Part shown: piece after piece, positions 25,124-62,190 of the stretch | Layout of the letters: every line of letters starts with the position of its first letter | Numbering within the stretch: the stretch's first letter is position 1 | Source of the DNA: Arcanobacterium haemolyticum | GTDB taxonomy: Bacteria > Actinomycetota > Actinomycetes > Actinomycetales > Actinomycetaceae | Length of the DNA stretch: 64,000 bases | Reading direction: 5' to 3' | Assembly (NCBI GenBank): GCA_021532125.1 | Contig: JADYUX010000002.1 | Span: 248,001-312,000, forward strand | Program-made: the position numbers and the translations under genes | Notes under the pieces: generated by a model | Seen by the model: the letters and a program-made list of their open reading frames with translations, nothing else | Told to the model about the DNA's origin: nothing | Databases searched by the model: none

Positions 25124-26740
25124 TCACTCCGGCAGCTCGGGGAGAGACGATACGCCTTCCGCCGACACCTCGATCGTTGTCGTTACTCCAATCCTGCGAA
25201 GAAAATTGGAATCGTGGCTGACGACGAGGATCGCTCCTTTGTACGCATCGAGAGCTTGGGCAAGATGATCGACACTTCGCATATCCAGGTTGTTTGTCGG
25301 TTCGTCGAGGATAAGAAGTTCTGCGGCAGGTTCACTTAAGAGAATTGAGGCAAGAGCAACGCGGAATCGTTCTCCTCCTGAGAGCGCAGATACAGGAAGT
25401 TCGGCTATTGTCCCTCGAATGAGCAAACGAGCTAGGCCGTTGCGGATATCACCGTCGCTGCGCGCTGAGACCTTGGCAACGTTTGCCATTGCGTTCAGTC
25501 CCTCGTCGAGGTCGTCTCCCCGTTGTCTGAGGTATTTCACCCGGCGCACATGAGTCTGCACCTCCGGTAGGTGCCGAGCATATTTTCCTGGGCTAACCGC
25601 ACGGCCCTGACGAGCGCTTTCGTACAGTGCGTTGAGGAGAGTTGTTTTCCCTGCCCCATTCGCTCCGACAACGGCAATGCGTTCGGGGCCCTGAGCGACG
25701 ACCGGCCGCTCAGCAGAGATTGTGAAAATCTTGCGTCCTCCTGGTAGGCCGGGGTCTGGCAGCTCGACCGCAATGTGGTCGTCCTCCCGGAGACGGGCTT
25801 CGGCTTCGTTGAGACGCTTGTGTGCTTGTGCCATACGATCTTGGGCAACGGCTCGGTATTCACTTGCGGAGTTCTGAGCTTTTCTCGCGAGATTTCCTGC
25901 GATGATGCGGGGGATTCCGCCCTCACGCTGTGCCTTCTTTCCGGATGAGAGACGACGAGCTAGCTTTGTTTCCGCTTCGATACGCTGCCGCTTTTCGTTC
26001 TTCCATGCTTGTTTTGCTGATCGTGCTGCTTGGAGTGCCGCCTCTTGCTCTGACTCTATTGCGACTTCCCATTCGTCGTAATTTCCGCCGAAAAGTGTAA
26101 GATCGGCCGCCCGTAGTTCGGCGATAGCGTCCATGTGGTTGAGTAGTTCGCGGTCGTGGCTCACGACGACGAGGCTCCCGTTCCGCGTGTCGAGCAGCGC
26201 GATAAGGCGGGCGCGAGCGGAGCGATCGAGGTTGTTTGTCGGTTCGTCGAGGAGGAGGGTTGATGAGTGGCGAAGTGTCAGTCCTGTGATTGCAAGGAGG
26301 GTAGCTTCACCACCCGACAAGGTTGAGACTGGCCGGTCGAGGATAGCTGACGACATCTCTAGAGGCGCGAGTGCTTCGTCGATTCTGGACTCAATATCCC
26401 AGTTGTCACCAACAGCATCGAAGTCGGCTGGATCAATCGAACCGGACTCGATCCTCCGTAGAGCGTCAAGTGCACCGCGAACCCCAAGCAGGTCTGCCGC
26501 GGTATTGGTGCGCAACCAGGCGATATGCTGCGGTAGGTAGAGTGCTGTGTCATCACACGTGATGGAACCTGATGTCGGCACAAGCTCCCCGGCGATGAGG
26601 CGTAGTAGTGTCGATTTTCCTGTTCCGTTATCTCCGATGACTCCCGTCTTTCCGTGTGGGAGGTGAGCTGTGACATCTCGCAGAACTGATGTGCCATCCG
26701 GCCAGGAATACGACAGGTGCGATAAAACTACGGTAGACAT
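25124..26740 (-). CDS. ABC-F family ATPase
   Basis: A 538-residue protein with two nucleotide-binding domains and no membrane segment. Domain 1 has Walker A GDNGTGKST, signature LSGGE and DEPTNNLD; domain 2 has GANGAGKTT, LSGGE and DEPTNNLD. The domains are joined by a charged helical linker (about residues 225-310). This is the ABC-F architecture of ribosome-associated factors, which include antibiotic-resistance proteins and translation factors such as EttA. The start ATG 26740 follows AAGGGG with 7-base spacing, but that site is locked in a predicted stem (26741-26809). A MarR-type regulator gene lies upstream in the same direction. Resistance is suggested by context, not proven. Confidence 0.9.
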   Translation of the reverse strand: MSTVVLSHLSYSWPDGTSVLRDVTAHLPHGKTGVIGDNGTGKSTLLRLIAGELVPTSGSITCDDTALYLPQHIAWLRTNTAADLLGVRGALDALRRIESGSIDPADFDAVGDNWDIESRIDEALAPLEMSSAILDRPVSTLSGGEATLLAITGLTLRHSSTLLLDEPTNNLDRSARARLIALLDTRNGSLVVVSHDRELLNHMDAIAELRAADLTLFGGNYDEWEVAIESEQEAALQAARSAKQAWKNEKRQRIEAETKLARRLSSGKKAQREGGIPRIIAGNLARKAQNSASEYRAVAQDRMAQAHKRLNEAEARLREDDHIAVELPDPGLPGGRKIFTISAERPVVAQGPERIAVVGANGAGKTTLLNALYESARQGRAVSPGKYARHLPEVQTHVRRVKYLRQRGDDLDEGLNAMANVAKVSARSDGDIRNGLARLLIRGTIAELPVSALSGGERFRVALASILLSEPAAELLILDEPTNNLDMRSVDHLAQALDAYKGAILVVSHDSNFLRRIGVTTTIEVSAEGVSSLPELPE

Positions 26741-26820
26741 GATTTAGCCCCTTGTAGATCAACCTCTTTATTGATTCGAAATGCGGCGCTCAGTGCGCCG
26801 GGCTAAATCTCACATTGATC
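26741..26820 (-). promoter_or_regulatory. Structured leader RNA sequestering the ABC-F ribosome site
   Basis: In the transcript a perfect 10-bp stem (GAUUUAGCCC, 26809-26800, with GGGCUAAAUC, 26750-26741) ends directly at the AUG and covers part of the Shine-Dalgarno AAGGGG. It encloses two small hairpins: GGCGC/GCGCC (26785-26799) and AUCAA/UUGAU (26758-26775), making a three-way junction. An alternative 6-bp pairing of upstream GAUCAA (26815-26820) with UUGAUC (26757-26762) excludes the second hairpin. This layout suggests translational control. Confidence 0.6.
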
Positions 26821-26979
26821 GAATTCGTACCTTTCACAGGGAATCTCAACAGCGACTTACTCTATCGGTATCAGACGGACATGTCGATGCGACATGATGA
26901 GCGTCACTTCTGCGGTGGTACAAGAATCGGTGGGCACATCACGATATGCCCAGCGATCCGTCAGTGTGGGGGAGTGCTG

Positions 26980-27576
26980 TTACTCCGTTTCAGATTCTTG
27001 CAGTGGATCAGCGGGGCAGGAGTTTTCTGCCACAGGGTCGGCCGGACACGGATCTGCCGGGCAGGAATCGTCTTGCACAGGGTCGGCCGGGCAGGAATCG
27101 GCGCGTGAAATGACCAACTTACCTTCGGGATCAAGGGTACGAAGAATTGCGAGGCACACATTCGCGAGTTCCCCAACTCCGTCACCTGGTAGATCTTCAA
27201 GACCTGAGAGGATGAGACGGCGGGTTATCTGAGCGTAGATGGGTGCCGCTTCAGCTTGGAGTTCGTACCCGTTACTCGTCAAGATCGCGTTCGTCGCGCG
27301 GCGATCTAGTGAACATGTTTCGCGACGAAGTAGTCCACGCCCTTCGAGCGAGGATACGACTCGTGAGAGTCGAGGCAAGGTGGCGTTAGTTTTCGATGCG
27401 AGAGCAGATAGACGCATGGAGCCGCCACGCTCAACAAGTGCCTCAAGGAGCGTGTATTCAAATGCAGTGAGGCCCACCCTGGCTAGCTCGTGATCGAGTG
27501 CCGTCGGAAGTAGCTCAAGGAGAGCGTGCAGACGCGCGATGGCAACCCGCTCTGAGTAAGATAATTCGTTTGACAC
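26980..27576 (-). CDS. MarR-family regulator with Cys-Pro-Ala-Asp-Pro repeat tail
   Basis: 198 residues. Residues about 1-150 are a standard MarR winged helix (LTAFEYTLLEALVERGGSMRLSALASKTNATLPRLSRVVSSLEGRGLLRRE, then a D-R wing). The last 40 residues are unusual: four CPADP motifs in an acidic, low-complexity tail ending LQESETE. The tail is encoded by near-identical DNA units. The start is GTG 27576. MarR proteins usually repress efflux or stress genes and respond to small molecules or oxidation; the cysteines may bind metal or sense redox state, or the tail may be incidental. The ABC-F gene lies downstream on the same strand and is a candidate target. Confidence 0.85.
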   Translation of the reverse strand: MSNELSYSERVAIARLHALLELLPTALDHELARVGLTAFEYTLLEALVERGGSMRLSALASKTNATLPRLSRVVSSLEGRGLLRRETCSLDRRATNAILTSNGYELQAEAAPIYAQITRRLILSGLEDLPGDGVGELANVCLAILRTLDPEGKLVISRADSCPADPVQDDSCPADPCPADPVAENSCPADPLQESETE

Positions 27577-27600
27577 GACGAGAATTATATACCGGTAAAT
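27577..27600 (-). promoter_or_regulatory. Promoter of the MarR gene, possibly leaderless
   Basis: A consensus TATAAT (27589-27584 on the minus strand) lies 7 bases before the GTG start, so transcription would begin at or next to the start codon. It partly overlaps the end of an 8-bp palindrome TACCGGTA (27590-27597), a likely operator for autoregulation. Confidence 0.55.
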
Positions 27601-28231
27601 AGGCCCTGTGGCCGTATCTCCACGTCAAAATATCTTTTTTGGTATGGACTCACCACATAGTGTAGATATGCACTTACCGTAAAATGTTGGTATTTCGGTT
27701 TTCGGCGTGCAGAATCACAAGGATTGTGTTAGGCCAAGAAAGAATATTCCCCGTTTTCCCCTTGGGTGAATTTTTGTCGGAAACGGGATCCACTATCTTT
27801 CCTTAGCCGCGCAGCGAACTCAACTCTCGCTACATTACGCCACTTGCGAGAATGCGAAACCTCTCCAAGCGTCACAGTCATGCTAGATCGACCCACGATC
27901 ACAAGCATCACAGTTATTCTCACAATTCACTCACGAATCCCAGATGTAGCATGGTTTCCTAACGCTTCATTTACGCATGGATGTTACGCACCTCAGCACC
28001 ACATACCGCCGATATTTATATATATGCATCGATTTCGTTACATATTCATTACGAGTCAATAAAATTGTGCGAGATATCTTTACACGTCGTATTTTTTTCA
28101 CGCACCGCCTCCTATTTCCACACGGCATCGGTACAGGATGAACGATGGCCCTCCGAGCCCCATCCGGCCACAGCGTCAAGCAGTGCTCCAACGCAGCCCA
28201 TCTTCGTCATCGTTCGTGACAAAATGGCCTT
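27601..28231. other. AT-rich intergenic region between marR-type gene and pepN
   Basis: About 630 bases, locally low in G+C (for example around 28000-28100) compared with neighbouring genes. Only short or unsupported frames occur on either strand, and none has a ribosome site plus family resemblance. It must contain the pepN promoter. I see no RNA gene or repeat array. Confidence 0.5.
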
Positions 28232-62135: not shown

Positions 62136-62190
62136 TGAGATGAATTGGGGGGGGGCACAGCTTTTCGCTGTGCCCCCCCAATTCATCTCA
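62136..62190. terminator. Very strong bidirectional terminator with a nine-G run
   Basis: TGAGATGAATT plus a G-run and CACAGC pairs with GCTGTG, a C-run and AATTCATCTCA, about 24 bp with a 4-base loop. The left arm has nine G (62147-62155), the right arm seven C. It separates the convergent lipoprotein and permease genes. Confidence 0.85.

Follow-up and report, generated by a model that had tools for sequence, protein, structure and literature searches.

A predicted start-hiding stem in the leader of an Arcanobacterium haemolyticum ABC-F gene and its possible place among translational attenuators

An ABC-F gene on the reverse strand of a 64,000-nucleotide stretch of Arcanobacterium haemolyticum DNA (the whole stretch is called the window here, and all coordinates are its own) is preceded by a leader in which a perfect 10-bp stem runs up to the base before the AUG. 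The reading favoured for this leader, with a confidence that stops just short of half, is that it is a translational attenuator of a known kind whose sequence has diverged. Behind it are ranked a static brake, translational coupling, control by a MarR-family protein, transcription attenuation and a riboswitch. Most likely the control scheme is the one already known for the ABC-F family, in a version of divergent sequence.

The ABC-F gene and its relatives

25124–26740 (−): ABC-F gene, 538 amino acids (ORF call, NCBIfam match and tree)

The ATG at 26740 is the earliest possible start of this gene, an in-frame TAA lying two codons 5′ of it. The best NCBIfam match of the protein is NF000355, ‘ribosomal protection-like ABC-F’, at 317.6 bits, and since this is below the cut-off of 380 a role in resistance, suggested by sequence, is graded as likely and no firmer. 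Both the locus comparison and a tree place the protein in the actinobacterial ABC-F clade that contains the tiaA and are5sc orthologs. The tree included 56 of the 162 homologs (L168 and L143, intended for inclusion, were too short), with two further homologous ATPases from the genome of the window as outgroup, and the protein stands there on a long, separate branch (0.75 versus a median of 0.21). In the searches the best ABC-F relatives had about 55% protein identity; nothing above that level came from 59 genomes of relatives, 213 of the family and 396 of the order (overlapping sets, the last a sample), nor from the 80 loci listed by a contig scan, and in a plasmid search with the protein the best 5000 records were all under 60% identity.

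The clade matters for what the leader might do. In Streptomyces coelicolor the tiaA and are5sc leaders are described, in the part of PMC12421871 available to us, as ribosome-mediated attenuators of ARE5 ABC-F genes, and drug stalling at the start codons of their upstream open reading frames (uORFs) has been published there. Among the loci compared here, that of Streptomyces coelicoflavus (L055) has a uORF, MVGDDDISG, identical to the tiaA leader peptide as given in the same part of that paper, and 41 of 161 loci have a frame that encodes MLV, the leader peptide of are5sc.

The stem and its predicted fold

26800–26809 (−): 5′ arm of the sequestering stem, GATTTAGCCC (sequence and predicted fold)
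26741–26750 (−): 3′ arm of the sequestering stem, GGGCTAAATC, directly before the AUG (sequence and predicted fold)
26748–26753 (−): Shine-Dalgarno sequence of the ABC-F gene, AAGGGG (sequence)
26785–26799 (−): hairpin H1, GGCGC ACTGA GCGCC (predicted fold)
26758–26775 (−): hairpin H2, ATCAAT / GTTGAT (predicted fold)

The 5′ arm GATTTAGCCC (26809-26800) complements GGGCTAAATC (26750-26741) without a mismatch, making a 10-bp inverted repeat with 49 nt between its arms. The 3′ arm stops at 26741, immediately before the AUG at 26740, and takes in the final three bases of the Shine-Dalgarno sequence (26753-26748), while in the predicted fold the stem closes on H1 and H2. An earlier note on this DNA had reported a perfect stem to the AUG that covers part of the Shine-Dalgarno sequence and encloses two hairpins, and sequence and predicted fold bear out each of these points. 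Relative to the ABC-F start an AUG-UGA pair is at −75, the 5′ arm at −69 to −60 and the 3′ arm at −10 to −1. On this prediction the ABC-F ribosome site is partly hidden by leader structure.

How far does this exceed chance? Dinucleotide shuffling of 26850-26741 gave, in 20000 trials, 2 sequences with a perfect 10-bp stem right up to the AUG and 17 with one ending anywhere within −10 to −1. These odds flatter the stem, since the real window is much richer in 10-bp repeats than its shuffles are (80 overlapping matches with loops of up to 100 nt, against a shuffle mean of 8.4). Even so, of the 52 starts of called genes in the window only 2, at 26740 and 54111, have a 10-bp repeat ending at −8 to +3. 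The whole-fold signal is weak: z is −1.99 for the leader, with 10 of 200 shuffles equally good, and −1.82 for a 280-nt stretch, with 8 of 200. Opening the region from −20 to +10 costs 14.3 kcal/mol (p 0.077 against shuffles), a cost equalled or exceeded by 13 of 50 control genes, and the mean pairing of the ABC-F Shine-Dalgarno sequence, 0.53, is equalled or exceeded by 36 of the 50; these controls are ORFs picked mechanically from the window, their starts guessed (52 were called and 50 used).

Long inverted repeats were seen elsewhere in the window, a perfect one beside the second called gene start just mentioned, 54111 (−), and one at 62136-62190 with a G-rich arm.

Candidate upstream frames and the proposed switch

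26810–26815 (−): AUG-UGA start-stop pair directly 5′ of the 5′ arm, candidate ribosome parking site (ribosome-site score −3.9)
26790–26813 (−): candidate uORF, GUG to UGA, MRFSPAH (same −3.9 site at longer spacing; sequence)
26790–26837 (−): candidate uORF, GUG to UGA, MKGTNSINVRFSPAH, longer and in the same frame (weak ribosome site, −2.7)
26857–26895 (−): 12-codon frame MSHRHVRLIPIE, named in the earlier note, probably promoter DNA and not a regulatory uORF

In the free leader the 10-bp stem would hold the start region and part of the Shine-Dalgarno sequence, and little ABC-F protein would be made. A ribosome would start on a minimal upstream frame near 26815, either AUG-UGA or an overlapping GUG frame, and a drug acting at the peptidyl-transferase centre would hold it there, covering the 5′ arm (26809-26800); the 3′ arm would then be freed and a second ribosome could start the ABC-F gene. 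In this scheme we infer the transcription start, the use of a uORF, the stalling by a drug and the induction. The stem itself can be read off the DNA, and its fold and the loss of pairing once an arm is covered come from calculation.

When a ribosome footprint is placed at 26815 the mean pairing of −13 to −1 is predicted to fall from 0.78 to 0.31; across the seven codons tried between 26819 and 26795, 26815 among them, the values are 0.31-0.33. At 26825 it is 0.57, and with a ribosome on the GUG at 26837 the stem stays closed, at 0.78. The total cost of opening −20 to +10 falls little when the 5′ arm is covered, since other pairings form in its place: 13.8 kcal/mol becomes 11.0-12.3.

Three candidate frames that overlap one another could bring a ribosome there, and in each the ribosome site is weak or badly spaced. 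AUG-UGA (26815-26810) shares the best ribosome-site score among the 13 starts listed, −3.9 with AAGG, at long spacing; the MRFSPAH frame overlaps it, crosses the 5′ arm and stops within the H1 loop. A profile built from 21 uORF starts of the family has no match in the window leader. It is doubtful, though conceivable, that the sensor is the smallest possible uORF, the start-stop AUG-UGA directly before the sequestering arm, where a single parked ribosome would open the gene. A peptidyl-transferase drug would in that case trap the ribosome at initiation, fMet occupying the P site and a stop codon the A site. The same hexamer is known from E. coli as ambiguous AUGUGA start-stop sites (PMC9841429), and in the window it has an overlapping GUG frame; in the available part of that paper the E. 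coli sites were studied as gene and reporter starts, not as drug-sensing leaders. As a family trait the start-stop uORF was rejected, AUG-stop pairs numbering 4 in 160 leaders against 4.1 expected from shuffles.

AUG-UGA and the GUG frames overlapping it, absent from the earlier note, are more likely sensors than the 12-codon frame, which had been put forward as an upstream frame with a poor ribosome site. The frame exists, at 26895-26857, and its ribosome site is indeed poor; with this, its likely position 5′ of the transcription start and a stem left intact when it is occupied, a sensor role is unlikely (in silico a ribosome on the stop codon falls short of the stem, and the pairing of −13 to −1 stays at 0.78). 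A second suggestion, that pairing of GAUCAA with UUGAUC could open one branch, is likewise not supported. The competing GATCAAT (26820-26814) and GTTGATC (26763-26757) are present, at the level of chance: a helix this long or longer joins the two stretches in 34% of shuffles (P 0.34), and the forced fold, at −28.0 kcal/mol, is 6.8 worse than the main fold at −34.8.

What of a leader that does not switch at all? A static brake, or a stem without function, with translation slightly lowered at all times, is the rival that survives best, and we regard it as unlikely while giving it real weight. It is favoured by the z of only −1.99 for the whole fold, by the opening cost, with its p of 0.077 and the 13 of 50 control genes as high, by the fall of only 1.5-2.8 kcal/mol in that cost when the 5′ arm is covered, and by a leader without a convincing uORF. 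It has, however, to accommodate how rarely shuffles produce a perfect 10-bp stem that reaches the AUG, and the switched leaders of relatives as described in the available part of PMC12421871.

Translational coupling also needs no stalling. Ribosomes on the GUG frame (26837 or 26813 to 26790) would melt the stem in passing, and output would track uORF translation. The course of that frame across the 5′ arm into the H1 loop suits this, as does the drop in pairing of the start region when a ribosome occupies any of the codons tried between 26819 and 26795. But the ribosome sites of the GUG frame are weak, and the recognised uORFs of relatives have, in the cases examined, 3 codons or a stop before the stem that hides the Shine-Dalgarno sequence; we consider coupling improbable.

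Homologous leaders

The attenuator reading draws on the homologous leaders as a group, which clearly hide their start regions beyond their own shuffles. With the upstream part shuffled for comparison, the cost of opening −20 to +10 gave a mean z of 1.23 in 159 leaders, 30% of them at p<0.05; for the 50 control genes the figures were 0.08 and 10%. The starts of 162 loci could be aligned; L101, L126 and L127, with badly called starts, were dropped, and the 159 that remain include the window leader. They are not independent cases because the leaders are related to each other. That the window leader hides the ABC-F ribosome site and responds to stalled ribosomes, as had been proposed from the DNA, is supported by these relatives, through both the tiaA/are5sc clade and the group tendency to hide starts; for the response to stalled ribosomes ‘probably’ is the appropriate word.

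A census of pairing between uORF and Shine-Dalgarno sequence was near chance overall, 6 of 100 reaching p<0.05. Across 99 leaders, taken because a uORF in them fitted a search pattern, scores of at least 20 were found in 4, with 2.1 expected, and of at least 24 in 2, with 0.4 expected. The window AUG at 26815 falls outside the census rule on Shine-Dalgarno spacing and its helix score, 25, was computed apart. Because of the weak uORF sites and the outcomes of the family profile, the start-stop count and this census, the argument for the window stem is from its own improbability and from analogy, not from covariation.

Other layouts occur among the homologs. In 20 leaders with a long uORF, chosen by a pattern and leaving out leaders without a match to it, the ABC-F start is more open with the ribosome on the start of the uORF than with it on the stop in 12, and less open in 1; compared with the free leader, occupancy of the uORF start makes it more open in only 8 of the 20. 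By eye, L120, L011, L014, L112 and similar long-uORF leaders have a recurrent complementarity between a GCGCTGA-like stretch at or after the uORF stop and a TCAGCGC-like one just 5′ of the ABC-F Shine-Dalgarno sequence, which fits a switch where one of the two partners is masked by a ribosome standing at the uORF stop. In L160, of unrelated sequence, a perfect 10-bp stem ends one base short of the AUG, with its 5′ arm within a 7-codon uORF.

The nearest likeness in layout is a set of 15 leaders, the MKI class, from genus g42 of family f9 (L018, L131-L134, L139-L141, L144-L147, L149, L167 and L169). These are 15 of the 17 g42 leaders among those compared; L164 and L166, with TTG-AAG-ATC-TAA, are similar, missed the pattern and are outside the alignment. 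Mostly they have a TTG-AAG-ATC-TAG uORF, a hairpin CCAGAC/GTCTGG, a second CCAGAC copy and a Shine-Dalgarno-hiding stem at the start codon, with the 3-codon uORF sitting directly on the 5′ arm of that stem. The uORF starts at −72 to −77 in 9 of the 15 (range −68 to −90) and the 3′ arm directly abuts the start codon in 9. With a ribosome on the uORF start the in-silico pairing of the start region drops from 0.71 in the free leader to 0.41, by more than 0.1 in 13 of the 14 tested (L147 was left out). Whole-structure covariation in the 15 sequences is 0.091 versus 0.032, a value that 0 of 500 shuffles reach, and it depends on 4 double-changed cells; L140, with AGGGAT:ATCCCT in place of AGGTTC:GAACCT, supplies three of these. 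In the outer stem both sides are changed in 3 of 6 pairs. No Rfam match at gathering score was found in the two MKI loci scanned, L139 and L169, and no description of the class in the literature on ABC-F leaders, the class name itself not having been a search term.

Like the MKI class, the window has a uORF start near −75, in its case a candidate one, followed by the 5′ arm, an enclosed hairpin and a 3′ arm at the start codon. It differs in the uORF, which in the class is mostly TTG-AAG-ATC-TAG with a normal ribosome site, and in the arm, which there is AGGTTC, 6 bp and of unrelated sequence. None of the class uORFs (MKI, MKK, MKH, MEL or MTEL), which stop at the 5′ arm, is present in the window leader, and it is not a member. 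Its geometry, which had not been recognised from the DNA, can now be likened to this 15-member layout, differing from it in uORF and arm sequences.

The small fall in opening cost, the thinness of the MKI covariation and the excess of inverted repeats in the window all reduce our confidence in the attenuator reading and in its start-stop form, and add weight to the static brake.

Known systems and significance

The window and the tiaA and are5sc loci have a homologous gene clade in common, and those loci have a short uORF 5′ of the ABC-F gene. Their uORFs, MVGDDDISG and MLV, are, in contrast, absent from the window; 5′ UTRs of 194 and 232 bp, with terminator and anti-terminator forms, are described in the available part of PMC12421871. 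Similarly the cplR and vmlR leaders, to go by the available parts of PMC10201436 and PMC9226507, have a 3-codon uORF (MRI and MIN) and, like the window, a hairpin that wholly or partly hides the Shine-Dalgarno sequence, and translational attenuation adds to their control. Unlike the window, where none was found at 26600-27800, they have an intrinsic terminator too.

Were the attenuator reading true, ABC-F attenuation would extend to a further actinobacterial lineage, in a sequence unlike the leaders compared, and it would seem that different sequences can arrive at a common layout of mini-uORF, arm, hairpins and an arm at the AUG. Inducible ABC-F genes might then be detectable by layout where the uORF peptide is not conserved. 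A start-stop sensor, if real, would offer a minimal test case for peptidyl-transferase drugs acting at initiation and release.

The promoter region and the upstream marR gene

26859–26887 (−): promoter-like site, TCGACA-17-TAGAGT (consensus scan; 1 found versus 1.0 expected by chance)

From this promoter-like sequence we infer a transcription start near 26852, 3′ of the 12-codon frame. That frame overlaps the site and would be untranscribed if the site is used; it probably lies in promoter DNA. To the eye, some relatives show a −10-like element about equally far 5′ of the uORF Shine-Dalgarno sequence; the MAFFT alignment of promoter regions gave the window a poor placement, so this argument relies on inspection.

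Control might instead act at the promoter, by the MarR-family protein encoded upstream (27576-26980) or by another factor, the leader fold being incidental. The marR gene is 5′ of the ABC-F gene on the same strand, and a palindrome, CATGTCG-CAT-CGACATG at 26880-26896, overlaps the predicted −35. Yet palindromes with 7-nt arms are common (69 matches in 64 kb) and this one has no second exact site in the genome, so that as a MarR operator the 17-bp palindrome was set aside as not significant; and when the MarR protein was searched by tblastn against 169 loci (E<=1e-3; flanks mostly 0.7-3 kb) only the window's own matched. Control of this sort has a low probability in our estimation.

Transcription attenuation, in which the stem or another hairpin would stop transcription early unless a ribosome stalls, has published precedent in vmlR, cplR and are5sc (available parts of PMC9226507, PMC10201436 and PMC12421871). 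But 26600-27800 holds 0 terminator-like sites and the stem is not followed by a U run; the possibility gained some weight because terminators without a U run would escape that scan, and it is still very unlikely. Direct sensing of a drug or metabolite by a riboswitch, which the three-way junction shape might suggest and the earlier note had entertained, is hardly credible, there being no Rfam 15 match at, or even near, gathering score in the leader, where the sole riboswitch among the weak matches is Glutamine-II (11.4 bits versus 33 needed, E 1.9).

The upstream gene has peculiarities of its own. Pfam MarR covers only residues 36-94 of its product, which has a repeated C-terminal tail with four CPADP motifs (26980-27110, −), and in the DNA of this tail region a 45-bp tandem repeat extends over 27005-27090 (1.9 copies, 82% matches). 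Just beyond it, 22 bases past the marR stop codon, a near-perfect inverted repeat at 26926-26957 (15-nt arms, 87%, 2-nt gap) is possibly a terminator without a U run, or an operator.
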